From assembly GCA_025558075.1 (NCBI GenBank), contig JAHLKF010000035.1, positions 84,951-148,950 of the forward strand: 64,000 nucleotides of DNA, written 5' to 3'. Every line of letters begins with the position of its first letter. Position 1 is the stretch's first letter. The notes beneath the pieces were generated by a model. That model was not told where the DNA came from. It saw nothing but the letters and a program-made list of their open reading frames with translations, and ran no database searches. Origin of the DNA: Gaertneriomyces semiglobifer (Eukaryota > Chytridiomycota > Chytridiomycetes > Spizellomycetales > Spizellomycetaceae). Position numbers and translations under genes: made by a program. Positions 4,707 through 32,330 of the stretch are shown one piece after another.

Positions 4707-4746
4707 TTGTCACAGTGCAGACCGACATTGCATATGCACACAACGA

Positions 4747-5131
4747 ACGGATATGAGTTGGTCCAACCACTCCGTCTGGACAAGTGCCGCTCGATCCGAA
4801 GAGCCTTGCCAGGAGATTGCCGCTTTTGCAAGCACAAAAAGGGCGCTCCCCTCCCCGGAGCACACACAATCAGTAGTAGACAGGACGGATATGAGTTGGT
4901 CCAACCACTCCGTCTGGACAAGTGCCGCTCGATCCGAAGAGCCTTGCCAGGAGATTGCCGCTTTTGCAAGAGCATAAAGAAGCGCTCCCCTCCCTGCGCA
5001 CACACAATCGGAAGTAGACAGGACGGATATGAATTGATCCAACCACTCCGTCTGGACAAGTACTGCTCGGTGCGAGGAATCTTGCCAGGAGATTGCCGCT
5101 TTTGCAAGAGCATAAAGAAGCGCTCCCCCCG
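4747..5131. repeat. 138-bp tandem array at the outer end of the left TIR
   Basis: ACGGATATGA starts at 4747, 4885 and 5023, giving two full 138-bp units and one partial unit. Each holds GTTGGTCCAACCACTCCGTC (or a close variant) and GCCAGGAGATTGCCGC. Long open frames here exist on both strands in every copy, which is expected of a stop-poor repeat rather than a gene. The TIR terminus itself is a variant of the unit junction. Confidence 0.9.
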
Positions 5132-5834
5132 TTCAACTGAACGGCATACGGCTAGCTACCGAGAGTCGCGCAATACCCAGATTGCACGCCGTAAACTGAA
5201 ACTCACCGACTTCGTATGGGCAGCGTCTTGATATCGGTCCTTCCACAAAGGGCGGCATTGTCACGCATGACCGACATAGTCGGTCCACTGCGCATCCGGC
5301 TTGCCCTCAGGAAAGCCACTTGAGCATTGCCCCCGTCGTGATCTGTGTGTTAGAGAAAAGGAATGCGACTGTCTGGGAGGTTGGCCCGACAGGTCGCCTT
5401 TTATAGGGTGTCGCACGCGTGGGAATCCCAGACAGCCCTAACACCCGCATTGGCTGTGGCAAAGTCGCATTAGCTTAATTACACCCCTAACCCTACCGCA
5501 CTCCCAGCGCACCTCCATTTTTCCCTCCCCCGGGACATGCCCGAGCGCATGTAAAAGACATACCGTCAGACGTCCGACGGACATTTTCAGTTCGATCTCC
5601 GTCAGCACTCCAAGGCCTTGATCTCCGTGGGACATCCAGCTTTTTAGCATCAGAGCTCCTGCGGACATCCTGTGGATGTGCGTGGGTGCCCGGATACCTT
5701 TTACCAGGACATTCGCAGGGGGTTCCCTGCAGATAGCTCATATTGGGTATACCGCTGAACGCTGCTTATAACCGATAATACTATTGCATTATTATACATC
5801 AGCAATGTTTATATGACTGTCTGTTTGATTTTGA
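5132..5834. other. Non-coding part of left TIR (mirror 31101-31803)
   Basis: No convincing gene. Open frames are short and present on both strands. The stretch contains a TATA-like CTTTTATAGGG near 5399 and a single CCCTAACCCT-like motif near 5487 that is not a telomere array. Confidence 0.5.
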
Positions 5835-6678
5835 TCACTGTTCCTCGTCAGGATCGCTGCTTTCCACTTCCTCCACTTCCTCCACTTCCTCCAAACCCTC
5901 CATCGGCTCCGCGGTACCTTCTTCTTCTATTTCTCCTTCCTCAGTACCCTCGGACGTGGTTTCGGTGATGTCTTGGGTCTCGGTCTCCATGATATCAGCG
6001 GGTGGGGGCACATTGTGCGAATAAACGAACTCCACAGACTCTATGTCAATGACAAGATCGAGTTCATCCGGGTCCTCCCTGGGCTTCTCGAAACTCATAG
6101 GTGCACGGGTGAACTTGATCTTGTCGTTGTGGATAATCCGGTCAAAATACCTATTGAACTCTATGTCAGTTAACCGGTTTGCATGCAGTTTCAAGATCGC
6201 TCCACCCACTCAGCGAGCTCCTGGCCGGTTCTCATGTCATAAGAACCCCTGATGCTGTTATCCAAGGTCTTCCAGAAGCTCTGGCCGAACTTTTCTTGGC
6301 CGTAATCTCTCTCCATGGCGGCGACCACTGCCCTCTATGACGGTGGTCAATGGTGTCAGTGTCATGGATATCTCTCGGGCAACACTTGACAATGGCACTT
6401 ACCATCAATGCAGCCCGTTTAAGATGGGCATCTGTTACTGTTTTCGTGCAGAAGAGAAGCTCAGCAAAGGAAAGCAAATGAAGGTCATTCACCTTCTTGT
6501 CACCAGGAGTTCCAACAACCAAAACAGCCTTCATGTCGCTCTTCACACGGGTCAATGAGTTGGAGGCGACCTTGCGGACCTTGGCGACAATTGCGGCATT
6601 GCTCTCCATGGTGCGGGTAACACCCCACTGCTTCTTGAAGGCAAGAGCAGTCAATCCTTCAGCTTCATTGATGTATCG
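5835..6678 (-). CDS. TIR-encoded spliced gene of unknown function, left copy
   Basis: Reading the minus strand, exons at 6404-6678 (open at the 5' side), 6206-6334 and 5835-6158 join in frame across two GT-AG introns: 68 nt (6335-6402, GTAAGT...CATAG) and 47 nt (6159-6205, GTGGAG...ATAGAG). Approximate limits are offset by one at most. The product has a basic helical N-terminal part (about 90 residues), a central part with FGQSFWKTLDNSIRG, and a C-terminal acidic tail rich in Glu/Val repeats ending SSDPDEEQ. The first in-frame ATG is at 6609 (complement); similarity-like sequence extends upstream of it to the palindrome, so a 5' exon may be missing. The family is not recognised. An identical copy lies in the right TIR, so gene dosage is two. 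Confidence 0.55.
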
Positions 6679-6732
6679 TTGTCACAGTGCAGACCGACAT
6701 TGCATATGCAATGTCGGTCTGCACTGTGACAA
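6679..6732. repeat. 54-bp perfect palindrome in left TIR
   Basis: Arms of 27 nt, beginning TTGTCACAGTGCAGACCGAC, meet at TGCATATGCA with no spacer and no mismatch. It sits immediately upstream of the TIR gene. A half-copy (first 32 nt) lies at 4707-4738, straddling the outer edge of this TIR. Confidence 0.95.
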
Positions 6733-6845
6733 TGGACATTGTTGAGTCATATGGACATTGCTGACTGACAATGGACATTGCTGGCTCAATCTGGACATTG
6801 CTGAAATCTGGACATTGTTGACCCATTCTGGACATTGTTGACACC
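6733..6845. repeat. Six TGGACATTG repeats (mirror 30090-30202)
   Basis: TGGACATTG occurs six times, spaced irregularly by roughly 16-25 nt, most copies followed by TTG or CTG. The regular but imperfect spacing resembles an array of protein-binding sites next to the palindrome, upstream of the TIR gene. Confidence 0.8.
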
Positions 6846-7083
6846 GTAACGCTTAATATCACCTAATAACAAGTGATGTCTACTTATAACACCAAGTGAA
6901 AACTGGGTTGAGTTAGAATATTTTTCTTATGTCAATCTTAACCCGCAAAATCACCTACCATGTATTATCAAGCGCCCCCTTCCTGTTGACCTTCCAATCC
7001 CTCCATATTTCATCGAGTGCCGCGCCTATGAAACTTCCGCGTCCTGTCGCACCTATCCATATCCTTATATATGCCTCGTCTTC

Positions 7084-7132
7084 ATCGATAAGTGTCTCAA
7101 TCTGACATCACCCAAGTCAGACACTTATCGAT
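7084..7132. repeat. TTATCGATAA-type hairpin (mirror 29803-29851)
   Basis: ATCGATAAGTGTCT at 7084-7097 is the exact complement of AGACACTTATCGAT at 7119-7132, with a 21-nt loop. The TTATCGATAA decamer recurs upstream of the 21059 gene. Confidence 0.85.
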
Positions 7133-7299
7133 AAATCCTCAATGCTTCGCGAATATATCTTATGAACCTTATCGAATCAAACGCGCGCGTTCATTTCGTC
7201 GATAAACGGCCCTCGCCCATGGCGCTACGGGACTTGTATTTGTAGAGTTCATTATATCTGTCTCCTTCCGTCAGCCGCTCCATATACTATTGCAACACC

Positions 7300-7592
7300 C
7301 CACATTTCATACTTTATCAAGTCGTGCACAGATGGCACAGATGCACAGATGCACAGATGCCTTTCAGTCCGGAGAATACCATTTTCCAAAAAAAATTCAT
7401 TCAACCCTCTGTGAACTTTTTTTTTTGAAATCCCGTCTCTTAAACCTAAAATCATCTGTGCCATCTGTGCCATCTGTGCTTCTACATTAATTTTACTACA
7501 TACAATTTATATAATTACTACTACTTATCTACATATCCTCTACATAGCACAGATGCCCGCACAGATGTGAATCATCTAAATTCATCTGTGCC
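7300..7592. repeat. CACAGATG iteron-like array, left TIR inner end
   Basis: Direct GCACAGATG repeats near 7330-7360 face inverted CATCTGTG repeats near 7450-7480 across an A/T-tract core containing TTCAACCCTCTGTGAAC. More copies lie at 7545-7590. The array ends the TIR, next to the small HTH-like gene. Confidence 0.85.
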
Positions 7593-7611
7593 TTTAAATC
7601 CTTATATATGA

Positions 7612-7964: not shown

Positions 7965-7979
7965 CCGATATTATTTTGT

Positions 7980-10403
7980 ATGTTCAAATATAGATACTCA
8001 AAACTTATCGAAATAATGACCTGCTCATTCTATGAAGATGAGTTCTTTCCGGTTGACAATGCGGATATGCCAACTATTCTTACAAAGATCGAGTTGTGCG
8101 ACAAATCCAAACTCTGCCATCTCATCAAGAACAAGTATATGGATTCCAAATGGAGAAAACTGTATAAAGCCTACTTAAAGAAATGTTGGGTCCAAGGGAA
8201 TGAGTTCCGAGTAGAATATACATACTCGAAATATTCGTATGAAAATACTGGACGGCTGTTTTGTCGCAATGGGCTTGGACTTCAAGCCTTCCCTAGGGAC
8301 GTCAGGGCGTACCTATGTGGAGAGTTTTACGATGATATTGACCAAGTAAACAGTATGCCTGTTCTGTTGGCCCAAGTCTTTGAATCATACAATATCTCTG
8401 TACCCGAATTGGAGGAGTATGTTAATAATCGAAGTGCTTTCTTAGATAAAGAGCACCTTACTAAGAAAGATGTCCTTTCGCAACTGTTGACATCCTATAA
8501 ACCACCCTCCAACTCTCTACTCAAAAAGATCCATGCCGACATTTATACCAAACTGGTCCCCATCCTACAAAAAGAAGGCTGGTCCGAGAAAGTCTGGACT
8601 CATTTGAATACAGTACGCCACAAAGTTATCAAAGGCAACCTTCCTGGGTGCTTTCTGAGCCTTGTGATGCAGACACATGAACATGAAACCCTTAACGAGA
8701 TGTTCAACTTCTTTGAGTCCATGTACTTCTCTCCAGATGTGCCCGTGTTTGATGGAGGGCAGGTTCGAAAAGATCCCAGTCGAATTATTACTCAACATAC
8801 ACTTGATAAGTGTGAAGCGCAAGTACTAAATAATGCTGCGTTTTCTGTTAAACTTGCGATAAAACCCATGGAAGTATCGCCCGAATTCTATACAAAGTAC
8901 CACATCAGTGAAGACGACCTGCTTGATGATGATGAACAAAATGTAGAGAAAGACTTGGATATGGACGAGTATGTCATGGATATTCCTGATGATGAGGAGT
9001 TCCATTTACAGAAACTACAAAGATTTTATAATGATGGGTACTGCCCAAATCGAGCAGTGGCATATCTCAATAACTTTCTTGCCAAAATTACTCATGAGTC
9101 AACCGTATTTTATTGTTGGCGAGATTCACGTATGGAACCTTGGCTGCTTCGCGATAAGTCAACAACCAGAGGATCACTTAGCCATCGCTATCTCAAAAAG
9201 AAAGTTAAAACGGAGGACTCCAAGAAATGTAAATATGTTGATGTCCCAATGTTTAACGTGTGGGATGAAAACCCCTTCATCCTCACTTTCAAACGCGTTG
9301 TTATGAATCCTACCTACACCGGCGACATCAATTTTAAAGAACTTAATCTTTTCCGTGGATTCAAAGCAAAGCGTCTGGCCAAGTACGATCCTCAGGTTAT
9401 CGAACCTATTTTGCACCACATCAAGTACGTTATCAATTCTGATAATCAAGAGCATGCTGATTACACACTATCATGGTTGGCCCACATTGTCCAACATCCA
9501 GAAGAGAAGAATCGCACGGCACTTGTCCTCTACGGGAATCAAGGAACTGGAAAAAACATTCTCTTCGAGTTCTTTGGTGAAAAGATCATTGGCCGTGATC
9601 ATTATCTGTACTTGAACAATCTAGAGGACCTTACAGGACAGTTCACTTCATTGTCCGCTGCAAAAATCTTTGTTCTTGGTGATGAAATCTCATTCGCAGG
9701 GGGATATCGCACCAACAGCATCATCAAAAGCAAAGTCACACAATCATGGCAGAAACTTGAAAAGAAAGGTGTCGATCCTGTTATGATTGATGACTTTATG
9801 AACCTTTGTTTCTTATCGAACCATGATGATTGCATGCGTATCGAAGACACTGATCGTAGATACTTTGTTAAAAGGACTTCAAGCAAACACCGGAATGATC
9901 ACGAGTACTTCAATGCTCTTGCTGCACGATTGACACATGAGGCTGCGAATCACTTCTATACCTATCTTATGGAGCGAGATCTATCTGCCTTCAATGTACG
10001 TGACATTCCTGAAACAGAGGAGAAACAAAGTATGAAAATATATGCAAAAGCGCCTTTAGAGTTGTTTGCAGATGATCTATTGAATGGACAGATCAAGATC
10101 AATTCAGTGGTTACTTTGTGTGCGGATTCAGAAGAGGAAGAAGAAGAAGAGGAAGGTGAGCATGGCCGTCAAAGTCTCTACTTTGAAAGAAACAAAACCT
10201 ATGAAACCACGATCAATGTATTATTCAATCTTTATCGGGAGTACGTTGATGCAGGATTTGCTGGACGCAAAGCAGGTGCTGACTTACCAAAAATTGCCTT
10301 CAGTAGAGCCATCAGAAAACATCTGAAAATCGAGAACAAGTCAGGTCACCGCCACAATGGAACCCCTATTCTGTTAACTGTGGCTTCCCCAACCGAGGTC
10401 TGA
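7980..10403 (+). CDS. SF3 helicase replication protein with polymerase/primase-like N-terminal region
   Basis: The 807-residue product is the likely replicative protein. The superfamily 3 helicase core is at about residues 490-660: Walker A GNQGTGKN near 519-526, Walker B-like FVLGDEIS near 563, motif C CFLSNHDD near 609, then an arginine-rich DTDRRYFVKR. This is the helicase type of virophages and Polinton-like viruses. The N-terminal half has NTGRLFCRNGLGLQAFPRDV then YDDIDQVNSMPVLLAQ (about 95-135), a block I associate with the polymerase- or primase-like N-termini of such proteins. That part of the assignment is tentative. An eight-residue Glu tract lies near residue 720. No family B polymerase occurs in the element, so this gene is the best candidate for replication initiation. 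Confidence 0.88.
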   Translation: MFKYRYSKLIEIMTCSFYEDEFFPVDNADMPTILTKIELCDKSKLCHLIKNKYMDSKWRKLYKAYLKKCWVQGNEFRVEYTYSKYSYENTGRLFCRNGLGLQAFPRDVRAYLCGEFYDDIDQVNSMPVLLAQVFESYNISVPELEEYVNNRSAFLDKEHLTKKDVLSQLLTSYKPPSNSLLKKIHADIYTKLVPILQKEGWSEKVWTHLNTVRHKVIKGNLPGCFLSLVMQTHEHETLNEMFNFFESMYFSPDVPVFDGGQVRKDPSRIITQHTLDKCEAQVLNNAAFSVKLAIKPMEVSPEFYTKYHISEDDLLDDDEQNVEKDLDMDEYVMDIPDDEEFHLQKLQRFYNDGYCPNRAVAYLNNFLAKITHESTVFYCWRDSRMEPWLLRDKSTTRGSLSHRYLKKKVKTEDSKKCKYVDVPMFNVWDENPFILTFKRVVMNPTYTGDINFKELNLFRGFKAKRLAKYDPQVIEPILHHIKYVINSDNQEHADYTLSWLAHIVQHPEEKNRTALVLYGNQGTGKNILFEFFGEKIIGRDHYLYLNNLEDLTGQFTSLSAAKIFVLGDEISFAGGYRTNSIIKSKVTQSWQKLEKKGVDPVMIDDFMNLCFLSNHDDCMRIEDTDRRYFVKRTSSKHRNDHEYFNALAARLTHEAANHFYTYLMERDLSAFNVRDIPETEEKQSMKIYAKAPLELFADDLLNGQIKINSVVTLCADSEEEEEEEEGEHGRQSLYFERNKTYETTINVLFNLYREYVDAGFAGRKAGADLPKIAFSRAIRKHLKIENKSGHRHNGTPILLTVASPTEV

Positions 10404-10459: not shown

Positions 10460-10715
10460 ATCATCTGTGCCTAGTTAAGTAGATCATCTGTGCGGGGATC
10501 TGTGCATGGAGAGGGTATGTAGATAATTGTCAGTAATTGTAATAATTAATGAAGAGAAATTAATGTAGAAGCACAGATGGCACAGATGGCACAGATGATT
10601 TTGGATTCTTGCAATCGCTTTTCAAAAAAAAAAGTTCACAGAGGGTTGAATCAACTTTTTTCTGAAAACGGTTTTCTACGGACAGAAAGGCATCTGTGCA
10701 TCTGTGCATCTGTGC
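10460..10715. repeat. Third, diverged CACAGATG module in the element interior
   Basis: Same architecture as the TIR arrays: GCACAGATGGCACAGATG, then an A-tract and GTTCACAGAGGGTTGAAT, then CATCTGTGCATCTGTGC. The core has diverged from the TIR copies. It lies between the helicase gene and the Zn-ribbon gene. Candidate replication origin, packaging site or MITE. Confidence 0.8.
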
Positions 10716-11598: not shown

Positions 11599-12813
11599 CT
11601 ATACATCAGCAACGACTCCACCAATGCTCAGCGTAACATTCTCGTAGTAGTTCACAAGTAAACGAACCGACTCGGGAAGAGGATCCTTGTGAATAGTGGC
11701 AATTTTAAGTGACGAATTTGTTCCTTCAAATGACAAACCAGCGCTTGAAGACTTGGTGCGGTCCTGGAACGACCAGCCAAAGGAGAATTGCTTCTTGTCA
11801 TAATCAGCAAATGAGATATCCATATCGCCGAGACTGTCAAAATCAGTCTGCGATAACAGACTGGCGAGCAATGTCTGATTGTCGGTTGGTGAATGCGTGA
11901 AGCCGGCTTTCCCGCTGGGAATTGCGGTCATACCAAGAACAAGACGCCACTCCCTGAGATCCCAAGAGGAATAGTTCAAAGCAGCATCCTTTGTAGTATC
12001 AGCATTTGCGTCAACAAACATTGCATCAAATCCCTGCAAGGATCGCACTCCAGACATATTCAGATTAAAAATATTCTTTTCAGTGCCAGAAGCCGGCAGA
12101 AGAGCCTGGGTTGTTCTCGTATATTCATAGGAGATCCCTGCCGGGATTGGTCGCTCCGCGCCCGGCATGGCTCGAGTTGCATTAACGAACTGAGGGCTCG
12201 GAGTATGATAAGGCATCAAGAGCCTAATGTTCCTGACACGGATTTCGTCCACATTCGCACTTGGGAATACGGAGGCTGGGTCTGCAAGGACGATGGTGAA
12301 CTCCAGTGCCTGGTTCGGGAGTGCAAACACGTGAAAGAAACTTTTATTCTGAGGATTACAAAAACCAACCCATGGATGCATGTTCATGGAGACAGTTGCT
12401 CGAGTGTCGAATATATTATCGTTTGAATAACCGCTAAGTTGTCTCAACAATTTCTTATGTCCGGCCGGCATGTTCTTATAAACAGAGTTAAGATACGCCG
12501 GGAAGGACTCAATTTTTTCGACTATCTCCCCTCCGGCTACAATAGTCAAAGACTGAATGATGCTTTCCAGACCGAGATAAGTATTCTTAACATCGGCACC
12601 AGGAGTAATAGCGGTTCCGTTATTATATGCGGAAACATCCATGGAAAGGACCATTCTTGTAAGGTCAAATGATGTTGTGCAGGAATCACATACAATACGG
12701 ATGGGAGTCGAACTGCGGTCCTTTGAAGAATATTCGGCTTGATCGGTAGGAGAGAAGAAATGTATACCTTTTCCCAAAGGGTCACCAAATTGCCGAGCAG
12801 GAATTTCAGACAT
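11599..12813 (-). CDS. Major capsid protein, paralogue 1 (double jelly-roll type)
   Basis: A 404-residue product, the expected size for a Polinton-like virus major capsid protein. Blocks shared with the second capsid gene at 15043 are LPNQALEFTIVL, SSWDLREWRLVLG, and the C-terminal segment LKIATIHKDPLPESVRLLV followed by VTLSIGG. The residue pattern alternates beta-strand-like stretches as in double jelly-roll capsid proteins. It is on the minus strand, 63 bp from the packaging ATPase with the same orientation, forming a morphogenesis pair. Identity between the two paralogues is low, so they are not a recent duplication. Confidence 0.8.
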   Translation of the reverse strand: MSEIPARQFGDPLGKGIHFFSPTDQAEYSSKDRSSTPIRIVCDSCTTSFDLTRMVLSMDVSAYNNGTAITPGADVKNTYLGLESIIQSLTIVAGGEIVEKIESFPAYLNSVYKNMPAGHKKLLRQLSGYSNDNIFDTRATVSMNMHPWVGFCNPQNKSFFHVFALPNQALEFTIVLADPASVFPSANVDEIRVRNIRLLMPYHTPSPQFVNATRAMPGAERPIPAGISYEYTRTTQALLPASGTEKNIFNLNMSGVRSLQGFDAMFVDANADTTKDAALNYSSWDLREWRLVLGMTAIPSGKAGFTHSPTDNQTLLASLLSQTDFDSLGDMDISFADYDKKQFSFGWSFQDRTKSSSAGLSFEGTNSSLKIATIHKDPLPESVRLLVNYYENVTLSIGGVVADV

Positions 12814-12876: not shown

Positions 12877-13611
12877 TTATTCTGTGCTCGGTTTTCCCTC
12901 GGTGAACACGTCCTCATTCTTTGGTGTCTTTAGATCAATGTAGAGGAATGAATAAGGTTCTTTCGTTGCTCGATCTGCCACATCGATAAACTCGCGTTCA
13001 GTAAGGTGACATCTCAGTTCAGGTGCGATCTTTTCATATTGTTTCATATTCAGTCGATAAAGAATGACGTGTGTGTTATTAACACGCTGCAATGGCGTCA
13101 TTTGCAAAGTCTCATGAAAGGAGCACATTAATGAAATGCCGCTGTGTCTCGCTCGAGAGTAAAGAGTGTCAAGCATCTCTTTGATACCGCTGGATATTTC
13201 TTCATGTTTCTTGAGTTCCTTCTTCGGATCATTCCCGGTCTGTCGAGCGAGTATTCCGTAGTCGTCGATAACAATAAGAATGTGCTGCCGTGTCTTATCT
13301 CTTTTGTAGAGTTCTCTTTGTTTCTCAAACAAGGCGTTGAGGACATGGTTGGAGACTAAATGAGAAATGTATACATTGTTCTTTCGCTTAAGGCTGCTCC
13401 ATATGGGATCTTCAATAGAGGGAGTAAATATACACACGGCTGAATATGCTGGAGCGAGTTTCTCGATAAGGTTTACTTGACATGTTGTTTTACCGGATCG
13501 TGAAGAGCCGACAATGGAGAGAACAAAGAACTTTCTGGGAAATCCGGGCGGTGTCTTATCGATGAGTTTGACCTCGTTTTCTTTGGGGATCTTTACCTTG
13601 TGAATGTACAT
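12877..13611 (-). CDS. A32/FtsK-HerA-type genome packaging ATPase
   Basis: The 244-residue product has Walker A GSSRSGKTT at about residues 35-43 and Walker B ILIVIDDYG at 111-119. A downstream LYSRARHSGISLMCSFHE block carries the sensor and arginine-type residues typical of A32-like packaging ATPases in Polintons, virophages and large DNA viruses. Length is usual for the family. It would pump the genome into preformed capsids. It is upstream of and co-oriented with the first capsid gene and divergent from the penton gene across 53 bp. Confidence 0.9.
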   Translation of the reverse strand: MYIHKVKIPKENEVKLIDKTPPGFPRKFFVLSIVGSSRSGKTTCQVNLIEKLAPAYSAVCIFTPSIEDPIWSSLKRKNNVYISHLVSNHVLNALFEKQRELYKRDKTRQHILIVIDDYGILARQTGNDPKKELKKHEEISSGIKEMLDTLYSRARHSGISLMCSFHETLQMTPLQRVNNTHVILYRLNMKQYEKIAPELRCHLTEREFIDVADRATKEPYSFLYIDLKTPKNEDVFTEGKPSTE

Positions 13612-13664: not shown

Positions 13665-14414
13665 ATGTATAGAGAATATATTCTGAATACGGCCATAGTC
13701 GGGGACTCGAGCAATGCTACATTCTATATCTCTCCTCCTCAGAGCATCTATGCATTCCGTGTGATCTCGGTGAATTTCATTCAATCGTGGGACATGATGA
13801 ATAGTACTAACAATACCATCCTCTTTGCAGAGATGGGCGATACCACTCCACGAAAAGCCACAATCGCACCAGGACACTACAATGCCTTTAACATTGGTGG
13901 AGCAGTAGCAACTGCAATGTCGAATGCAGGTGGACAGACGTACACCTGCACCTATGACGAGCGAACTCGACGGTTGAGGATTGAAACGACGGGAAGTAAA
14001 GAATTCAAACTGATTGAAGGTGCACGAGGTAGCACTGCATACTTGCAACTCGGAATGAGTAAATCGAGCGAAAGCGGTTACGCATTACCGGGCTTTACTC
14101 TGCCTGCTCCATTAAATCTATCTGCAAGTCAACCGATTCTTCTCACTAGCAGAACTCTGCAAACGTCAAATGGGATCACATACGTTGCAGGAATCAACAG
14201 TGATATGAACGTTCTTGCGTGTATCACACCGGACTCCTTTAATGATGTAGTGTCCTGGGTAAACCCGAGTGACAAAATGTTCCAGACGGGAGAAATCAGC
14301 ATGAGTTCTATTGATATTCAACTATTTGACAGCCAAACGATGCAACAAATCAAGACAACGGCTCCAATCGTTGTTGTTCTTGGTGTTTATGATGATCCTG
14401 CAGACCTCTTTTGA
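13665..14414 (+). CDS. Penton (minor capsid) protein, single jelly-roll type
   Basis: The 249-residue product starts MYREYILNTAIVGDSSNATF. It shows the pattern of Polinton-like minor capsid proteins: an N-terminal strand ending in a proline (ISPPQS), the block IAPGHYNAFNIGGAVATAM, then TYDERTRRLRIET, and a final strand pair ISMSSIDIQLFDS / APIVVVLGVYDD. Size and position beside the ATPase and capsid genes fit. It would occupy icosahedral vertices and hold the fibre. The stop is TGA at 14412-14414, and reading through it gives no plausible protein, which shows TGA is a true stop in this element. Confidence 0.78.
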   Translation: MYREYILNTAIVGDSSNATFYISPPQSIYAFRVISVNFIQSWDMMNSTNNTILFAEMGDTTPRKATIAPGHYNAFNIGGAVATAMSNAGGQTYTCTYDERTRRLRIETTGSKEFKLIEGARGSTAYLQLGMSKSSESGYALPGFTLPAPLNLSASQPILLTSRTLQTSNGITYVAGINSDMNVLACITPDSFNDVVSWVNPSDKMFQTGEISMSSIDIQLFDSQTMQQIKTTAPIVVVLGVYDDPADLF

Positions 14415-22104: not shown

Positions 22105-23199
22105 ATGGAAACGGCAGTTGCGCCCACTGAGAACAATGAAGGACTACCAGTGGCAGTACAAGGACCAAGTGTTGCACCCACGAATGAAGAAGGTGAAGAA
22201 GATGAAGAGAGTGATCTTGAAATCACTGAAGGAAATGATCCACCATCAGAGGACAGTGGTGATCCCGTCAATGTTACCCCATGGGACGCGGCGTGGGTTA
22301 CTGAAGCATTAGAAAAATCTAAAAAGACACTTGTCGATCCATCGGATGTGGAGAATGCTCGTAATATGTTACTGGGGCTTGTGGATTACTATAACAAGGC
22401 CAACCTGCCAAGTTCCTGGGAACTTGTACAATGTTTCATACGCATTGCAAAAGCCAAGTTGACAGCGAGCCCTTCGATAGTCGAACAAGTGCAAGAATAT
22501 TTGGAAGGGCCTATCCCAAACGTTGCGCCTGGTAAAATCAGTGATCGTCACATTCAGAGAGCATTGAAGGCAAAAAATGAAAAGGATATTGTACGCGAAC
22601 TGGAGAAGATCAAGGTGGACAATGATATAGATGCTATGCATCGAGCCATATGTTATTACCATGCAGGCTTAGTTTGGGAAAAGTTGCCAAAGAGCCAAAA
22701 AGAAGCATTGAATTCGGCGGCGACAAACAAAATGAACAAATCAGCAAAGTCATTGAACAACATTCGACAACGAGCAGCAAGAATGTTCCGGTGTGTGAAC
22801 AAAATCGGACATGGGATCCTTTTTCACAAAGCCCTCCGGAGTGATAATTTCATCAAGAGGATCACAAAGGAAATGTATCCTCAGATTCAGAAAATAATGG
22901 AAAACGACTCGTATTGCCAATGGCCCAGGGCCGATATGTACAAGGATTATGTGCAGAAGATTCTGGAAGGTACTCCGCATGATCGAGATAACGGTACTCC
23001 AAGTGACAACTTGAATAGTTCATCCCACAAGAGGGCAATGGAGGATGGACCAGCCATCAGAAAGCCCCAGAAAAAGGTTAAGGGCAAGGAGCCTGTGCAG
23101 GGGAAGGAGCCTGGGCAGGATAATGGGCCTGGGCAGAGGTCCGTAGCATCCTACTTTCAATCACAAGCAAGACGTTCAACGATGTCGGTCGAAGAATAA
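22105..23199 (+). CDS. Acidic-helical protein with C-terminal PIP-box-like motif
   Basis: ATG 22105 gives about 364 residues. It has an acidic N-terminal region (EEGEEDEESDLEITEG), then a predicted all-helical middle (PWDAAWVTEALEKSKK... to IQKIMEN), a basic GKEP repeat, and QRSVASYF near the end. That last motif fits the Q-x-x-hydrophobic-x-x-aromatic-aromatic rule of PCNA-interacting peptides and sits, as usual, in a disordered tail. If real, the protein would tether to the host sliding clamp. The helical middle is not recognised. The start upstream is unclear because the preceding repeats are in frame but lack an ATG. Confidence 0.55.
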   Translation: METAVAPTENNEGLPVAVQGPSVAPTNEEGEEDEESDLEITEGNDPPSEDSGDPVNVTPWDAAWVTEALEKSKKTLVDPSDVENARNMLLGLVDYYNKANLPSSWELVQCFIRIAKAKLTASPSIVEQVQEYLEGPIPNVAPGKISDRHIQRALKAKNEKDIVRELEKIKVDNDIDAMHRAICYYHAGLVWEKLPKSQKEALNSAATNKMNKSAKSLNNIRQRAARMFRCVNKIGHGILFHKALRSDNFIKRITKEMYPQIQKIMENDSYCQWPRADMYKDYVQKILEGTPHDRDNGTPSDNLNSSSHKRAMEDGPAIRKPQKKVKGKEPVQGKEPGQDNGPGQRSVASYFQSQARRSTMSVEE

Positions 23200-23211: not shown

Positions 23212-23898
23212 TCAGCCGCAATACTCTTCAACAATCTTGTAAATCTCGTTGAATTGGTAGCCTTGGTCTTTTGAAATGAAATCGTTCATTCCGCTTTCGA
23301 GTGCACGTTCCTTGTACTGTTTCTGGGTGTAACCTGAAACACCAATGATAGGAATAGGTCTTGAACCCTTTTCTATTTCGTATGCTCAAATCTCTCGTGC
23401 AACTGTCAGACCGTCTTTAATAGGGATTTCGATATCCAAGAAGATGATGGAGAACATTCTCGCTTTGAACATTTCGATGGCCTCTTGGCCGTTTGAGGCG
23501 ACGAACACGTTGTGACCCTTTTTCTGCCACCATTTTTTGAAGATTTCCTGAAGAATCTTCGAGTCCTCCACTAGAAGAATGTTCAATATCTTACCTTCAA
23601 GTGTTTTCAACGGAGTGTTGCGTTGTTGGTCGGTCGGTGGATCGTCATAAGGCAGTTGCGTCTCAGAGTCGCCAGGCGACTCTTTCTTCAATCTGTCATA
23701 TATATCAGTCAAGGTCTCAATGACGTTGAGAAGATCGTTCAGAATGTCTTTATCGATACGGGGTTGTTCTGGTTCTTTGGCACTATAAAGTACATATTGC
23801 TCTAGAGCGGCCAAGCGTTTTTCAAGTTCTAGACGTTTGCGCTCGGAGACCTCGTAGCGATTCTTGTAAATGTTGTCCAAATTCCTTCTCGCCTCCAT
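23212..23898 (-). pseudogene. Coiled-coil plus response-regulator receiver domain, one in-frame TGA
   Basis: The N-terminus (1-70) is a predicted coiled coil (ERKRLELEKRLAALEQYV). From residue about 103 a two-component receiver domain is plain: NILLVEDSK (acidic pair 111-112), IIFLDIEIPIKDG (phosphoacceptor Asp155), then VSGY (Ser188) and DFISK (Lys210). Between ...LTVAREI and AYEIEKGSRPIP the frame is broken by TGA at 23386-23388, where the family usually has Arg/Lys, consistent with CGA to TGA. Without that stop the product would be 228 residues with all receiver motifs. There is no kinase or output domain. Receiver-only proteins are known in fungal and bacterial phosphorelays; in a virus of this type I know of no precedent. 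Confidence 0.8.
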
Positions 23899-23964: not shown

Positions 23965-26900
23965 ATGAGCGGATTGAATAGTAGGACTTCAAGCGGTTTG
24001 CGAACGCTGACAGATACGAACATCGTTAGCGGAATCGTTAGTGGCGAAGGATTGAAGGCAGAAGGGAATAACGTTAATTTGGAGGGTTTCCACACTGCTC
24101 GAGTCGTTGAACTAGAGAATAAGAATGGTCCACTCGAGGTTAACGCGATATCAAGCGAAGCACCCATTTCCAGCACTGCTGAAGACGGTCAAGTACACGT
24201 TTCCCTAGAGTTCTCTGAGGAGGATTTCCTTGTAAATGAGGAAGGCCAGTTGGCTTCCAAGAATCGTGTTGCGGCTGAGTTTCCGCTATGGGTTGATCGA
24301 ACGGAACAAACTTCCGTTGTGGGTATTCATACTGCTCTGCCGCTAGGGATCTCCGAGAACGGCTTGTCATTGTTCACCGATAATTCGCTTACTCTAGATG
24401 ATGACGGGAAATTAAAAGTTATCGATAAGAACTTCATTGAACCCCTCCAACATACAAATGGTGAGGTGCGTTTGAACATTGACTCTCCATTGGTTGTAAA
24501 GGATGGCAAACTAGGTGTTGATCAAAAAGAATTGTCGAAAGGAATCGGGGCCATTTCAGTATACTCTGCGATGGACGAGATCATCCCTGGAGTGGGCGAC
24601 TGGATAGATATCCCGGACTTACCAGGAGACATGGAGGAGTATATCGGCAACGGCACATTGGTGAAATTGTCTACATCGGACGACTTCCAACAAGCAGGAT
24701 CTCGCTTAGCAATTCGAAGTAAAGGTATGCATGAGATTCCATATTATGGAGGATTGAGCGGTTTAAATTCTTCGAACCGTTTTACTTATAACGAAACCCT
24801 CAGCACATTAACGGCACCGACATTCCATGCTGAAGCGGTCGACTACAATGTAACCGAGCCGCTTCAATTACCAACTGCCGGCTATGTGCATCAACTTTAT
24901 CAATCCCAAGCCGGTTCAGCGATAGATATCTCCGAAGTCGCGAATGGGAGGAAACTAATCAAGGTGACTCATGATACGACACTCAACATCAATGAGTCGA
25001 ACCAACTCGAAGTGAATGTACCCACCATCGCGGACGGCACTTCGGTGAAGGCGGTTAATGGCAAGTTGACAGTCGATCCCTATACCGCAGGAGATGGAAT
25101 ATCTATTGCGGACAATGTGGTTTCTTCTACACTGACATATGGAGGCAGCCTTCGAAGAGAAGGCGACCAAGTCATTGGAAAAACGGTTATCAGCGGTTCC
25201 AGTAATGTTACTGTTACCCAAACGAATCCCTTCTCGTATGCAGTGTCAGTCACAAGCAACCAATCGCAACTCGATAACCTGGAGGACAAGGTGGATGATC
25301 TTAACGAAAAAACGGATCAGAACAAGACAGAAACGGATAACAAACTGAATGACTTGGAGAATGAGGATATACGCCTCGATAACAAAATTGATACGGTTGA
25401 GAATCGATTGACAGAGCAAGAAACCAAGAGCGATCTTCTCTCGAACGATATCACCACAAACAGAGGGAGCATCAATCAGTTGAACACGGCTAAACAGCAA
25501 ATGCAGGGTGACCTTATCAACCTTGCAGCCGATTTGACAGGAACCACCGAGTTACTTGGAACAATCCAGACTGCTCAATCGGCGATACAGGTTGCTAATG
25601 CCGTGATGAAGGGAGATGTGACTTCGTTGCAAGGAATCGCTACGTCTCTGGCTGGTCAAGTCACTGGGCTCGACGCTGCGTTGACAGCCTATACGTCTCT
25701 CCCAGTTGTTTGTGGGGTCATCGGAATCGGGCTAATTGTTGGCCCGCCCGATCCGATTACAGGCATAATTACAATTACTAATACCAGTGCTCCCTTGATG
25801 GCGGAAAAACCACCGCCCCCTGTGAACCCAGAAAACAAGGGAGGTGGTGGCGGGACTTTGAAGGACACATATAAAAACGAGGAAGGCGGGGGCGGTTTGA
25901 ACGGGGGTGGTGGAACAGGGGGAGATGGAGAAGGATCCACAGGAGGGGGCAGCGGCGGTGGTTTGAACGGGGGAGGATCCGTTGGAGAATCCTCATCAGG
26001 ATCGGCTAAACCTACAGAAACACCTATTTTACCACCTATCAATCCTGTAGATCTTCAAAATACGGGTCGGATTGGAGGCACAGATGGTAATGACTTGCTT
26101 CCATGTCTGAATGGACTGCCTCCAATTTTCAAAGGACGTGATGATAAGGGAGAAAACACTTGGTTTGTTGATTCATGGGGGCGAAGATGGAGTGAGGAAC
26201 TGCAGTTAGAAATTATTGAAGATGGAATAGAAAGATCTGTGATTGAATTGGATGAACATGGTGTTCCTATTACTGAAAAAGGACACATTGATATTATCTT
26301 GCGTGGTTCTGATGATGATCGTATTTCAACAGCGATATTGACTCATGACAGGCACCTTCAGAGCGGATACATTCAGCAGGGAGGGATCCTATTTGAGCAT
26401 CCAACTACCGTGCCCAATATAGCCATGGTGTATCAGGCTTATGAGAAGTACATTCTCCCCTATGTGGAATCGTGTAATTACATCAACGTTTCACAAGGAC
26501 TTGTGAAAGATGGGAACACCATTTCTTTGAGTGAAGATCTCTCGACATTTGCAAAGACAAGCAGCATCAAAGCATTAGGATTTAAAGATACCTTGTCCTA
26601 TTCGGAGTTAACGGGACGTCCCACACTTGGGACATTGGCAGCGAAGAATAGCATTGCCTGGACGGAAATCACATCTCGTCCTACTTTAGGAACCTTATCG
26701 ACCAAGAATACACTGGATTGGAATGGAACAGATATTCTAAATAAACCGACGGATTTGACCACCAAGACTTATGTTGATTCTTTATCGTATCTCACGATTG
26801 GAACTGGGTTGGTCAAAACGGGGAGCACAATTAGTCTGGGGTCGGATCTCGGTGCTTTTGAAGTCAAAACCAATCTCAAGGCTCTTGCTTACAAGGACTC

Positions 26901-29280
26901 TTTGAGTTGGACTGAGATTACTTCGAAACCAACACTGGGAACACTTGCTTCAAAATCGAGCGTGTCTTGGACAACTGAAGTGGCAAATAAGCCAACGCTT
27001 GGAACCTTATCGACAAAAAACAACATTGATTACAACTCGACAGATATAATCAACAAACCGGACTTGTCAATCTATGAAACTAAAACATCGCTTAAAGGAT
27101 TGGCTTACAAAGACAAGGTTGATTATGCGACCGATGTAATTAATGCTCCAGCCCCCGTTACATTTGGAAGCGGTTTGCTGTTCAGTGAAAATACGGTATC
27201 ATTGAACCCAGCAGTCAGTGTAGATTCTTTGGCGACTGTAGGAGGAATTTCATTTGGGGGAAATATGTCCGGAACAGGAAATGTTTCCATAGGAGGTACC
27301 TTTACGGCAACGAAGAATGCCAACATTGCGTTCAACCATATATTGAACAACCAATCGGCAGCATCAAATTCTTGTACATCATTGCACCTGCGTGCTGGTG
27401 GTACACAGGGTTTATACCTGCATATTAACAGCGTTGGTAGAGGAGTGTATGGAGGAGCAAGCGCTGGAACCATTCAAAACTATGCAGGTGCATTAAGGTT
27501 GCTAACGAGAACGGAAACTGGTGGTATTGTGATTGATGATGTGGGTGATGTCGATATTTCCCAACGTCTCTCGGTTGGAATGGGCAACGACATTGTATCC
27601 TTTCCTCCTGTCAATTTGTGGGCTAACACAGGCGTGGTTTCCGCCCGACCATATGGGAACGGTGTGTATACAACCAGTGCTAGTTCCAATAATGGATATT
27701 TACCTTACATGGCTTTTACGAATGTCAATACAACCAACTGGGCATGGATGTCGGCAAATTCAAAATACAGCACAACTGCACAATATAACTACATTGGATC
27801 TGCTGTTACATTGGTTGATGCGACAAATATAAGTGGAGAGTGGTTGCAGTTGGAAATGCCTCTTGATGTCAAACTGACATCATTTGACATTTCTATTCGA
27901 CAATCACGTTTTATCAAAGACGTTGTGCTTGCTGGATCCAACGATGGAACCACATTCGCAATGGTGATGTCTTCAACGGCAACATGGAGTGCCGATCCAG
28001 AACAAACCTTGTCATTTACAGTTTCATCAAACAAGTCATTCAAGATACTTCGCCTAATTGTACTCTCTGTGAACCACAATGGAGGGTTCTCAGACGTGTA
28101 TAGATTGATGTTCTATGGTGTTCCTGTCTCTGTGAACATCAAGGGTATGCTATCTACGAAGCAGATTCTGACAGAGAACTTGATATGTTCGGGTGATCTT
28201 TCAATCGACAACGATGTCGCATTCAAAAATGATATTGTCGACTCTATCAAATATCCTCAGATACAGTTGACCGGTGCAACTACCGCAGGATATATTGCGA
28301 ATGCAAGTAGTTACTTGAATGGAACATCGGCAGGCTGGAAGGCTTTCACTAATTCCTTGGAGATTAATGACTCTTATTGGTCCGCATCAACATATTCCGG
28401 TGGTGAACAGAACATGTATCAAGGTACAGTTATTACTGTTGTAGATGGTTCTAATATCAAAGGCGAATGGGTTGAACTTGAGATGCCCGAAGCAATCGCT
28501 ATCAATGCATTTTCATTTGCCGCCAGAACACCTGAAATGCCAATGTTTCCTAAGAATTACACCATATGTGGATCGGATGACCGCAGCAACTGGACAGAGA
28601 TCTCCTCTGGAACAATGACATATACGATATATCAAAATTCCACTTCAGTAGACCGATATATACCGATCAAGAACTACACTATGAAGAAGTTTAAAGTCCT
28701 TAGGTTCATCATTCGGAACATTATTTCTTCTACATATGTCCATATTGGTAAACTGACATTCTATGGATCCAATACCACACGTAAAATCATAGATGCTCCA
28801 TCTGCGAAAATTAACAATATGGCTTTGACCGCTCCAGCATATGGAATGTTCCAATTGCATTCGAGTCAAGCGTTTTCTGTAAACGGCACAGCGTATCAGT
28901 TAATAACTAAATGGACACCTTCCTTTGGTATGGAAAGCGATACGATTACTTGTTCAACAAATTCGCAAGATATTGTCATTAAGTTACCGGGAATATACAA
29001 GGTTGAATTCGATTTAGATGTGTTTCAGTCAGGTTCCGGATCGGTCAATAGTTATTTTGGTTTTATGAGCCCTGGTGCCACTGTGTATTACGAAGATGGT
29101 TATCATGTAAGAAAACACAGCATGGTTGCCGGCCAGAAAGTAACAGGATCTTCTATATGTCGTGTGGTAGAAGCAGACACCAAGATGATTCTTCGCTTCA
29201 TATCCGCAAGTTCATCGGGCGGGATTACTGGCTCTCAAGCATCTCGGTTGATCATATATCGTATTGCGCCATTGGCCTAA
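23965..29280 (+). CDS. 1771-residue modular fibre / receptor-binding protein
   Basis: Order of parts: about 1-190, repeats like SPLVVKDGKLGV and NSLTLDDDGKLKV, resembling adenovirus fibre-shaft beta-spiral repeats; about 430-520, a heptad coiled coil (LDNLEDKVDDLNEKTDQNK); about 620-675, a Gly/Ser-rich hinge; about 690-850, a unique domain; about 865-1055, repeats of GRPTLGTLAAKNS / KPTLGTLSTKN type, common in phage tail fibres; about 1210-1390 and 1430-1605, two discoidin-like (F5/8C) domains with GEWLQLEMP / GEWVELEMP and a terminal FYG; about 1620-1771, a beta-rich head resembling C1q/TNF-type or fibre-knob trimers. Such a protein would trimerise and bind cell-surface glycans. The function is inferred from architecture. 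Confidence 0.8.
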   Translation: MSGLNSRTSSGLRTLTDTNIVSGIVSGEGLKAEGNNVNLEGFHTARVVELENKNGPLEVNAISSEAPISSTAEDGQVHVSLEFSEEDFLVNEEGQLASKNRVAAEFPLWVDRTEQTSVVGIHTALPLGISENGLSLFTDNSLTLDDDGKLKVIDKNFIEPLQHTNGEVRLNIDSPLVVKDGKLGVDQKELSKGIGAISVYSAMDEIIPGVGDWIDIPDLPGDMEEYIGNGTLVKLSTSDDFQQAGSRLAIRSKGMHEIPYYGGLSGLNSSNRFTYNETLSTLTAPTFHAEAVDYNVTEPLQLPTAGYVHQLYQSQAGSAIDISEVANGRKLIKVTHDTTLNINESNQLEVNVPTIADGTSVKAVNGKLTVDPYTAGDGISIADNVVSSTLTYGGSLRREGDQVIGKTVISGSSNVTVTQTNPFSYAVSVTSNQSQLDNLEDKVDDLNEKTDQNKTETDNKLNDLENEDIRLDNKIDTVENRLTEQETKSDLLSNDITTNRGSINQLNTAKQQMQGDLINLAADLTGTTELLGTIQTAQSAIQVANAVMKGDVTSLQGIATSLAGQVTGLDAALTAYTSLPVVCGVIGIGLIVGPPDPITGIITITNTSAPLMAEKPPPPVNPENKGGGGGTLKDTYKNEEGGGGLNGGGGTGGDGEGSTGGGSGGGLNGGGSVGESSSGSAKPTETPILPPINPVDLQNTGRIGGTDGNDLLPCLNGLPPIFKGRDDKGENTWFVDSWGRRWSEELQLEIIEDGIERSVIELDEHGVPITEKGHIDIILRGSDDDRISTAILTHDRHLQSGYIQQGGILFEHPTTVPNIAMVYQAYEKYILPYVESCNYINVSQGLVKDGNTISLSEDLSTFAKTSSIKALGFKDTLSYSELTGRPTLGTLAAKNSIAWTEITSRPTLGTLSTKNTLDWNGTDILNKPTDLTTKTYVDSLSYLTIGTGLVKTGSTISLGSDLGAFEVKTNLKALAYKDSLSWTEITSKPTLGTLASKSSVSWTTEVANKPTLGTLSTKNNIDYNSTDIINKPDLSIYETKTSLKGLAYKDKVDYATDVINAPAPVTFGSGLLFSENTVSLNPAVSVDSLATVGGISFGGNMSGTGNVSIGGTFTATKNANIAFNHILNNQSAASNSCTSLHLRAGGTQGLYLHINSVGRGVYGGASAGTIQNYAGALRLLTRTETGGIVIDDVGDVDISQRLSVGMGNDIVSFPPVNLWANTGVVSARPYGNGVYTTSASSNNGYLPYMAFTNVNTTNWAWMSANSKYSTTAQYNYIGSAVTLVDATNISGEWLQLEMPLDVKLTSFDISIRQSRFIKDVVLAGSNDGTTFAMVMSSTATWSADPEQTLSFTVSSNKSFKILRLIVLSVNHNGGFSDVYRLMFYGVPVSVNIKGMLSTKQILTENLICSGDLSIDNDVAFKNDIVDSIKYPQIQLTGATTAGYIANASSYLNGTSAGWKAFTNSLEINDSYWSASTYSGGEQNMYQGTVITVVDGSNIKGEWVELEMPEAIAINAFSFAARTPEMPMFPKNYTICGSDDRSNWTEISSGTMTYTIYQNSTSVDRYIPIKNYTMKKFKVLRFIIRNIISSTYVHIGKLTFYGSNTTRKIIDAPSAKINNMALTAPAYGMFQLHSSQAFSVNGTAYQLITKWTPSFGMESDTITCSTNSQDIVIKLPGIYKVEFDLDVFQSGSGSVNSYFGFMSPGATVYYEDGYHVRKHSMVAGQKVTGSSICRVVEADTKMILRFISASSSGGITGSQASRLIIYRIAPLA

Positions 29281-29342: not shown

Positions 29343-29635
29343 GGCACAGATGAATTTAGATGATTCACATCTGTGCGGGCATCTGTGCTATGTAGAGGAT
29401 ATGTAGATAAGTAGTAGTAATTATATAAATTGTATGTAGTAAAATTAATGTAGAAGCACAGATGGCACAGATGGCACAGATGATTTTAGGTTTAAGAGAC
29501 GGGATTTCAAAAAAAAAAGTTCACAGAGGGTTGAATGAATTTTTTTTGGAAAATGGTATTCTCCGGACTGAAAGGCATCTGTGCATCTGTGCATCTGTGC
29601 CATCTGTGCACGACTTGATAAAGTATGAAATGTGG
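29343..29635. repeat. CACAGATG iteron-like array, right TIR inner end
   Basis: Mirror of 7300-7592. It lies directly after the end of the fibre gene. Confidence 0.85.
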
Positions 29636-30202
29636 GGTGTTGCAATAGTATATGGAGCGGCTGACGGAAGGAGACAGATATAATGAACTCTACAAATACA
29701 AGTCCCGTAGCGCCATGGGCGAGGGCCGTTTATCGACGAAATGAACGCGCGCGTTTGATTCGATAAGGTTCATAAGATATATTCGCGAAGCATTGAGGAT
29801 TTATCGATAAGTGTCTGACTTGGGTGATGTCAGATTGAGACACTTATCGATGAAGACGAGGCATATATAAGGATATGGATAGGTGCGACAGGACGCGGAA
29901 GTTTCATAGGCGCGGCACTCGATGAAATATGGAGGGATTGGAAGGTCAACAGGAAGGGGGCGCTTGATAATACATGGTAGGTGATTTTGCGGGTTAAGAT
30001 TGACATAAGAAAAATATTCTAACTCAACCCAGTTTTCACTTGGTGTTATAAGTAGACATCACTTGTTATTAGGTGATATTAAGCGTTACGGTGTCAACAA
30101 TGTCCAGAATGGGTCAACAATGTCCAGATTTCAGCAATGTCCAGATTGAGCCAGCAATGTCCATTGTCAGTCAGCAATGTCCATATGACTCAACAATGTC
30201 CA

Positions 30203-30256
30203 TTGTCACAGTGCAGACCGACATTGCATATGCAATGTCGGTCTGCACTGTGACAA
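30203..30256. repeat. 54-bp perfect palindrome in right TIR
   Basis: Mirror of 6679-6732. It adjoins the GGACATTG repeats on one side and the TIR gene on the other. Confidence 0.95.
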
Positions 30257-31100
30257 CGATACATCAATGAAGCTGAAGGATTGACTGCTCTTGCCTTCAA
30301 GAAGCAGTGGGGTGTTACCCGCACCATGGAGAGCAATGCCGCAATTGTCGCCAAGGTCCGCAAGGTCGCCTCCAACTCATTGACCCGTGTGAAGAGCGAC
30401 ATGAAGGCTGTTTTGGTTGTTGGAACTCCTGGTGACAAGAAGGTGAATGACCTTCATTTGCTTTCCTTTGCTGAGCTTCTCTTCTGCACGAAAACAGTAA
30501 CAGATGCCCATCTTAAACGGGCTGCATTGATGGTAAGTGCCATTGTCAAGTGTTGCCCGAGAGATATCCATGACACTGACACCATTGACCACCGTCATAG
30601 AGGGCAGTGGTCGCCGCCATGGAGAGAGATTACGGCCAAGAAAAGTTCGGCCAGAGCTTCTGGAAGACCTTGGATAACAGCATCAGGGGTTCTTATGACA
30701 TGAGAACCGGCCAGGAGCTCGCTGAGTGGGTGGAGCGATCTTGAAACTGCATGCAAACCGGTTAACTGACATAGAGTTCAATAGGTATTTTGACCGGATT
30801 ATCCACAACGACAAGATCAAGTTCACCCGTGCACCTATGAGTTTCGAGAAGCCCAGGGAGGACCCGGATGAACTCGATCTTGTCATTGACATAGAGTCTG
30901 TGGAGTTCGTTTATTCGCACAATGTGCCCCCACCCGCTGATATCATGGAGACCGAGACCCAAGACATCACCGAAACCACGTCCGAGGGTACTGAGGAAGG
31001 AGAAATAGAAGAAGAAGGTACCGCGGAGCCGATGGAGGGTTTGGAGGAAGTGGAGGAAGTGGAGGAAGTGGAAAGCAGCGATCCTGACGAGGAACAGTGA
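30257..31100 (+). CDS. TIR-encoded spliced gene of unknown function, right copy
   Basis: Mirror copy of the left TIR gene. Exons are up to 30532, 30601-30729 and 30777-31100. The intron at 30533-30600 starts GTAAGT and ends CATAG. The one at 30730-30776 starts GTGGAG, has GTTAACTGACATAGAG at its 3' end, and joins ...ELAEW to FNRYFDRIIHNDK in phase. Without the second splice the first product would end at ...AEWVERS. In-frame ATG 30326 is the earliest usable start. The frame stays open back to a TGA at 30251, inside the palindrome, which hints that the original 5' end was displaced. Confidence 0.55.
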
Positions 31101-31803
31101 TCAAAATCAAACAGACAGTCATATAAACATTGCTGATGTATAATAATGCAATAGTATTATCGGTTATAAGCAGCGTTCAGCGGTATACCCAATATGAGCT
31201 ATCTGCAGGGAACCCCCTGCGAATGTCCTGGTAAAAGGTATCCGGGCACCCACGCACATCCACAGGATGTCCGCAGGAGCTCTGATGCTAAAAAGCTGGA
31301 TGTCCCACGGAGATCAAGGCCTTGGAGTGCTGACGGAGATCGAACTGAAAATGTCCGTCGGACGTCTGACGGTATGTCTTTTACATGCGCTCGGGCATGT
31401 CCCGGGGGAGGGAAAAATGGAGGTGCGCTGGGAGTGCGGTAGGGTTAGGGGTGTAATTAAGCTAATGCGACTTTGCCACAGCCAATGCGGGTGTTAGGGC
31501 TGTCTGGGATTCCCACGCGTGCGACACCCTATAAAAGGCGACCTGTCGGGCCAACCTCCCAGACAGTCGCATTCCTTTTCTCTAACACACAGATCACGAC
31601 GGGGGCAATGCTCAAGTGGCTTTCCTGAGGGCAAGCCGGATGCGCAGTGGACCGACTATGTCGGTCATGCGTGACAATGCCGCCCTTTGTGGAAGGACCG
31701 ATATCAAGACGCTGCCCATACGAAGTCGGTGAGTTTCAGTTTACGGCGTGCAATCTGGGTATTGCGCGACTCTCGGTAGCTAGCCGTATGCCGTTCAGTT
31801 GAA

Positions 31804-32188
31804 CGGGGGGAGCGCTTCTTTATGCTCTTGCAAAAGCGGCAATCTCCTGGCAAGATTCCTCGCACCGAGCAGTACTTGTCCAGACGGAGTGGTTGGATCA
31901 ATTCATATCCGTCCTGTCTACTTCCGATTGTGTGTGCGCAGGGAGGGGAGCGCTTCTTTATGCTCTTGCAAAAGCGGCAATCTCCTGGCAAGGCTCTTCG
32001 GATCGAGCGGCACTTGTCCAGACGGAGTGGTTGGACCAACTCATATCCGTCCTGTCTACTACTGATTGTGTGTGCTCCGGGGAGGGGAGCGCCCTTTTTG
32101 TGCTTGCAAAAGCGGCAATCTCCTGGCAAGGCTCTTCGGATCGAGCGGCACTTGTCCAGACGGAGTGGTTGGACCAACTCATATCCGT
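31804..32188. repeat. 138-bp tandem array at the outer end of the right TIR
   Basis: Mirror of the array at 4747-5131, so the provirus carries the same array at both extremities. Placement at the very ends suggests a role in end recognition, end replication or telomere-like maintenance, which is inference. Confidence 0.9.
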
Positions 32189-32330
32189 TCGTTGTGTGTC
32201 CCTGCGGGCCCGCTGCGCAATACCTTACCTGTGCACTTACGGTTATCGGCGAATGCTTCGACTGGAACCTTGAGCTTTCTAATGCCTCTTTCCTATCGAC
32301 TTCCTTTCTTCTGCGATTTCGAATTACAAG

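Follow-up and report, generated by a model that had tools for sequence, protein, structure and literature searches.

The stretch of DNA analysed here (the window: 64,000 nt, positions 84951-148950 of contig C35 in a 20.86-Mb assembly of 66 contigs) carries an integrated Polinton-like virus (PLV) in the chytrid fungus Gaertneriomyces semiglobifer. The virus occupies positions 6680 to 30255 (23,576 bp), its ends read 5'-TGTCACAG...CTGTGACA-3', and it is delimited by terminal palindromes, by a 5-bp target-site duplication (TSD) outside them and by paralogous sites that lack the insertion. In the reading that we consider probable, it inserted as a linear genome with 52-bp palindromic ends that would have been replicated through hairpins, underwent repair after insertion and carries a mosaic of genes. 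An earlier note on this DNA had claimed a Polinton-like virus in a fungal-type genome, and the model of the double jelly roll major capsid protein (MCP), the packaging ATPase and the chytrid homologs bear this out; the size of 27.5 kb given there must be revised to 23.6 kb, with junctions at 6679/6680 and 30255/30256.

Virus ends, target site and inverted host flank

Two arms of 2,856 nt each (4737-7592 and 29343-32198) are 100% complementary and had been described as the terminal inverted repeats (TIRs) of the element. Their equal length and identity stand, but they do not mark the virus ends, as the outer 1,943 bp are host DNA. Each arm contains a 52-bp perfect palindrome (6680-6731 on the left, 30204-30255 on the right), which the flanking T and A extend to 54 bp (6679-6732 and 30203-30256). 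The true TIRs, at 6680-7592 on the forward strand and 29343-30255 on the reverse strand, are identical and 913 bp long, comprising the palindrome and a further 861 bp, and homology to related copies starts at the palindrome. Comparison outward from the palindrome showed that the inner side is common to the copies and that the outer side differs among the window, contigs C32 and C43 and the C19 family.

The host flank is multicopy, and the left flank was found at six other places, one of them partial. Three left-flank paralogs were fetched (L052, L053 and L054), and two of them, L053 on C7 and L054 on C21, read ...GGCACGACGAT|ACATCAATG with no virus and a single ACGAT. In L052 and L053 the first 1,204 bp of the right flank are 98% identical to those of the window and directly adjoin the left flank. 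In the window ACGAT is present twice, at 4703-4707, now separated from the intact element, and at 30256-30260. Since the left flank ends with ACGAT, the right flank starts with ACGAT and the paralogs lack the virus, the virus is placed at 6680-30255. Paralog L054 is also occupied by another element, C21a, whose left end lies 136 bp farther along. A 138-bp array that had been considered as evidence of host continuity was dropped; it stops about 10 bp before 32198.

The exact equality and 100% identity of the arms would fit an element of 27.5 kb with genuine 2,856-bp TIRs, which we regard as extremely improbable: the outer 1,943 bp open with the TSD and continue the host sequence in the paralogs, and related copies stop at the palindrome. 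The earlier argument that long TIRs indicate a separate lineage fails with it, about two thirds of each arm being duplicated host flank. The case advises caution, as exact long TIRs may contain duplicated host DNA.

The outer part of the claimed left TIR (4737-6679, reverse strand, 1,943 bp) is an inverted copy of the native right host flank (30256-32198, forward strand), which forms the outer part of the claimed right TIR. The copy meets a broken terminal palindrome (4708-4738, forward strand) that consists of one 26-nt arm and 5 nt, the last two of which (CA) are shared with the copied flank. This remnant, adjoining the outer left end (4707-4738), is cut five bases past the centre with a 2-bp overlap at the join, and is present at the outer left junction only. 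From these junctions we infer that the left palindrome may have broken near its centre after insertion, perhaps while extruded, that the broken end would have copied the right TIR plus 1,943 bp of host flank, and that the copied end would then have been rejoined by end joining to give the apparent 2,856-bp TIR.

A second element (C31:95887-120214) also has inverted host-flank copies, of 1,113 bp and 98.65% identity. Its outer junction adjoins the palindrome of another element (with another stem; L080:2328-2374) and not its own broken one, so that the repair model does not fit C31 simply, a point against that model. Alternatively, the inverted flank copy in the window could be an assembly artefact, arising from a missed adapter or a misjoin at the TIR, and the virus a plain insertion between two copies of ACGAT. 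The 100% identity of the arm copies favours such an artefact, as do six contigs that stop at one base in a related element, so that these repeats are evidently hard to assemble. However, the broken palindrome and the 2-bp overlap at the left junction speak against it, and the similar flank on C31 is too diverged to have arisen in this way; we therefore consider the artefact rather unlikely, while leaving it an appreciable share of probability.

The earlier note had proposed a search of the host genome for further copies and empty sites; this was run, and both were found. In the sister (C19) family, left flanks paired with the right flank of C32 gave the TSD CTCGT, and uninterrupted copies of the host site exist on C7, C1, C38 and C20; on C28 the flank is matched in part. 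This site lies inside a gene of another PLV-like multicopy element (L046, around C7:918323-919486; L016:732-1157), which has a 332-aa protein with a sub-cut-off DUF5901 match and a 338-aa neighbour that by eye resembles a capsid protein; a Pox_A32 fragment lies in the flank. Contigs C2, C19, C30, C34, C39 and C47 stop at the same base inside a sister element. A subtelomeric origin of these six ends was rejected, since all stop at that one base within the element; we read the shared end as the point where assembly halted in a repeat that had collapsed. The sister-family copies are thus probably collapsed in the assembly, with uncertain copy counts.

Terminal palindromes and a proposed mode of end replication

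The virus has palindromic terminal sequence, as do hairpin-telomere viruses of the pox and asfar type. The 52-bp palindrome folds as a hairpin (-30.9 kcal/mol, DNA parameters) and is present in full at 11 sites of the assembly, besides the half site at the outer left end in the window. A search with the pattern TGTCACAG-N14-44-CTGTGACA returned 42 sites in the assembly, against 1 for a reversed-pattern control. Interior to the 8-bp arms, complementarity is perfect at 30 of the 42 and broken by no more than one mismatch at 33, with 19 left stems represented, and the larger stem families are located at the ends of elements that were mapped by gene searches. In a chance control on IMG/VR, a similar pattern matched 21 times, never with a perfect interior (the best had 12 of 17 pairs); as candidate related ends, these matches were rejected and read as chance, their interiors being only partly complementary.

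The 5-bp TSDs point to a DDE integrase. The virus encodes one with a chromodomain (rve; 18529-19698, forward strand, 389 aa; PF00665 44 bits, PF00385 56 bits), and we infer that it carried out the insertion at TG...CA ends. Five palindrome pairs were examined; C21a and C38b have 5-bp TSDs (CCGTG and CTCGT, respectively), C31a has inverted flanks, and C31b consists of two right ends and hence is no pair. Both central bases are present in two stem families, and the central bases weakly suggest a flip-flop of the ends.

In the mechanism that we propose, a linear virus genome with 52-bp palindromic tips inserted at its TG...CA ends with a 5-bp target duplication, as the TSD and the empty sites show. 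The end of each strand would fold into a hairpin with a 24-bp stem, and this hairpin would prime or cap replication of the end, in rolling-hairpin or closed-hairpin style, replacing a terminal protein and family B DNA polymerase (PolB), neither of which was found in the window element. To our knowledge, and judging from the replication proteins described, no route is established by which PLVs without a protein-primed polymerase complete their linear ends; a terminal palindrome that stays symmetrical as its sequence diverges would solve this in a concrete, testable way and connect these viruses with the hairpin-ended giant viruses. More tentatively, and with slightly more doubt than belief, we suggest that a clade of chytrid PLVs has hairpin telomeres, self-copying palindromes whose stems vary while complementarity is kept, in place of protein priming, and that these palindromes also break and drive inverted duplication of host DNA.

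The palindromes might instead be paired integrase-binding sites, a symmetric complex requiring TGTCACAG on both sides, and have no part in a replication hairpin. This would agree with the conservation of the outer 8-12 bp across lineages in the TG...CA form, such termini being expected of rve integrases, and with the palindromes of C21a and C6d, where no relative of the 349-aa recombinase described below was detected. Protein binding would, however, conserve sequence and not self-complementarity, so that inner stems which differ between families and are still complementary (perfectly in 30 of 42 sites) count against integrase binding; we judge it unlikely, though it deserves serious consideration.

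A further possibility concerns the probable tyrosine recombinase (19833-20882, forward strand, 349 aa), which shows an R-K-LRR-HH-Y pattern in 7 copies, within the conserved motifs IRS / NRK / GISD[LM]RR / FHHT..EFD.Y, which we take to be tyrosine-recombinase motifs. A profile of this protein matched best, among PDB entries, an integrase over the C-terminal part (E 0.099); the single sequence found no credible match in PDB, none of six relatives was assigned to a recombinase family by Pfam, NCBIfam yielded nothing on it, and PHROGs gave one weak match to an unnamed family. The protein could be a telomere resolvase, similar to a protelomerase, acting on the palindromes to form covalently closed hairpins. 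The motifs in 7 copies, and a palindrome of about 50 bp as in the N15-like arrangement, would accord with this. Two points argue against a resolvase: palindromes likewise terminate elements where the protein has no detected relative, and the fold is unconfirmed. We hold it to be quite improbable.

Several observations weigh against the reading with replication hairpins. The case for hairpin ends comes entirely from integrated copies, and selection by symmetric integrase binding could account for the palindromes. Nine of the 42 sites have at least two internal mismatches, at least two of these sites (C2:1056221 and C6:638591) being no better than chance, and the majority of single-copy stems are not tied to any element. 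The flank match of C6d is 4 bp (ACGG) and not 5. When the centre bases of four pairs were compared, C6d differed only at the centre, two pairs were identical and C31a differed elsewhere. The AlphaFold2 model of the recombinase is unusable (pLDDT 39). The likeness of the N-terminal half of the replication protein to the PolA-like TVpol is presumed, and the penton assignment falls short of proof.

Capsid, packaging and replication genes

The Pfam scans covered 23 of the 27 open reading frames (ORFs) of at least 100 aa in 4600-32400, with spliced or shorter genes outside their coverage. These scans and the capsid model confirmed that ATPase, SF3 helicase, integrase and capsid genes lie between the arms, as had been claimed. 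The replication protein (7980-10403, forward strand, 807 aa) has an SF3 helicase in its C-terminal half (PF19263, 69.1 bits), and its gene is 93% identical to that of an A-type element. Neither a family B polymerase nor a Ulp1/adenain (adenovirus-type) protease was matched in the scanned ORFs, in agreement with the earlier note.

The first capsid protein, MCP-A (11599-12813, reverse strand, 404 aa), is a double jelly roll MCP according to its predicted structure, which was compared with those of PBCV-1, Sputnik and PRD1. The second, MCP-B (15043-16290, forward strand, 415 aa), is a paralog with 28-30% identity to MCP-A, and a query with MCP-A retrieves MCP-B copies with E values down to 2.2e-33. 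Beside MCP-A lies the A32-type packaging ATPase (12877-13611, reverse strand, 244 aa; PF04665 30.1 bits, cut-off 22.8), the best matches of which are G. semiglobifer proteins (P0001, 98%), followed by chytrid and environmental sequences; its profile gave one weak match only in PDB, to HypB. The 249-aa protein (13665-14414, forward strand) is the probable penton. In favour of the earlier penton claim are the conservation of the gene beside MCP and ATPase in related elements, with 38 matches in the genome, and weak profile evidence (hhalign probability 11%, E 0.0027, to a protein with a DUF5901 hit). PDB searches with the MCP profile, the penton and the fibre-like protein gave no credible match, and NCBIfam added nothing on the penton. 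A lysine-rich protein (14456-14983, forward strand, 175 aa), possibly a core protein by its composition, resembles by eye the N-terminal portion of P0016, a Phlyctochytrium gene model with an MCP-A at its end.

Judged from these sequences, the element is a recombinant, with MCP-B, penton and ATPase of one lineage and with MCP-A and SF3 helicase close to another. The ATPase is 98% identical between the window element and the sister family, yet their replication proteins differ, that of the sister family being Prim-Pol plus SF3. A B-type core (MCP-B, penton and ATPase) probably acquired an MCP-A and an SF3 replication gene, both close to the versions carried by A-type relatives in this host. The hybrid gene set described earlier is thus real, but it runs deeper than had been stated: the two capsid genes stem from two lineages, and replication genes have been swapped. 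Within one genome, two capsid lineages and recombinants bearing both document how capsid and replication modules have been exchanged in nature. A 167-bp copy (10549-10715, 87% identity) of an inner TIR segment lies between the helicase and MCP-A genes, at one boundary of the region in which the element departs from the sister family.

Ratios of nonsynonymous to synonymous divergence (dN/dS) were determined between the window and the sister family; MCP-A and the ATPase were compared with the C19 copy, and the other eight genes with C59. The ATPase, penton and MCP-B gave 0.06-0.08, the 100-aa protein 0.024, the 345-aa protein 0.105, the 118-aa protein 0.14, the integrase 0.18, the recombinase 0.197, MCP-A 0.41 (369 of 404 codons compared) and the lysine-rich protein 0.55. 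The dS values range from 0.07 (recombinase) to 1.29 (MCP-B), a spread which indicates recombination. By this measure constraint is weaker on MCP-A, one of the two capsid genes, which the virus may be able to do without.

Relatives and further features

Chytrid PLVs are already known; the palindromic ends and the dual-MCP mosaic look new. Bellas & Sommaruga 2021 (PMC7805220) report a PLV from Spizellomyces punctatus and a group that bears the name of this fungus; three integrated elements are flanked by TSDs of 5-7 bp, and chitinase is present in 52% of the group, so that it is not obligatory there. The window element likewise is an integrated PLV of a chytrid host with a 5-bp TSD, and no chitinase domain was found in its scanned ORFs. 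Unlike the window element, that group is described, as far as the description is available to us, without terminal palindromes or dual MCPs. MCP-A is 55-57% identical to S. punctatus SPPG_02195, assumed here to be the MCP used in that paper, and forms one clade with S. punctatus proteins, as a candidate member of the MCP cluster shared by that group. Powellomyces chytrid fungus MELD viruses 1-6, listed in NCBI taxonomy, also have a chytrid host, and MCP-A is 55% identical to the hexon of virus 5 (P0020, the sole hexon compared).

With Polintons/Mavericks (Polintoviricetes) the element shares the rve integrase, the packaging ATPase, a double jelly roll MCP and TIRs, but differs from them in lacking a detected pPolB or protease and in having palindromic ends and a 5-bp TSD; 6 bp is given as typical for rve integrases (PMC12220804). 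The combination of a Polinton-type integrase with no PolB, noted earlier, agrees with the literature on PLVs. Like the PolA(TVpol)-S3H and AEP-S3H PLVs (PMC12220804, PMC11071308), it has a non-PolB replication protein with an SF3 helicase, whereas here two otherwise close families bear different replication proteins. Duplicate hexon ORFs are mentioned for adintoviruses (PMC11071296), and Fungi were excluded from the genomes downloaded by Bellas et al. 2023. Among the matches listed in literature searches on Gaertneriomyces viruses, on hairpin or palindromic ends of PLVs, Polintons or virophages and on two-MCP Polintons, as far as their text was available, neither such ends nor a dual-MCP arrangement in PLVs appeared. 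Poxviruses, asfarviruses and chloroviruses are hairpin-ended (PMC11814242). They share linear double-stranded DNA and TIRs with the window virus, whose palindromic tips are as expected of opened hairpins. Unlike them, the window virus is integrated, has a DDE integrase and is known from integrated copies, and their genomes are much larger.

No relatives were confirmed in IMG/VR scans with the ATPase and with an MCP alignment, a tblastn search of phages with MCP-A returned a single chance match (E 6), and an Rfam scan of 4500-32400 gave no match. The paralogous second MCP, the probable tyrosine recombinase, the terminal palindromes, the TSD and a broken response-regulator gene had been missed in the earlier note. 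This last gene, with a receiver domain (23386-23898, reverse strand; PF00072 45.5 bits, the match ending at profile position 64 of 111), is broken by an in-frame stop, as seen on reading the frame beyond it, and was possibly captured from a cellular gene. The virus further encodes a Ser/Pro-rich protein (16592-17629, reverse strand, 345 aa), two small proteins (17714-18070, reverse strand, 118 aa; 18117-18419, forward strand, 100 aa), a protein with no Pfam match above the cut-off (22105-23199, forward strand, 364 aa) and a fibre-like protein with F5/8 type C domains (23965-29280, forward strand, 1771 aa; PF00754 40.6 bits), to which an ORF at the right end of another element, on C43, is similar by eye.

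The host repeat at 1-4707 may be Plavaka/KDZ-like; its main ORF had no Pfam match. Downstream of the virus, two large ORFs are ordinary eukaryotic genes (synaptojanin-like and Nrap), and the host part of the window also contains two 190-bp direct repeats of 99% identity at 61118-61572.

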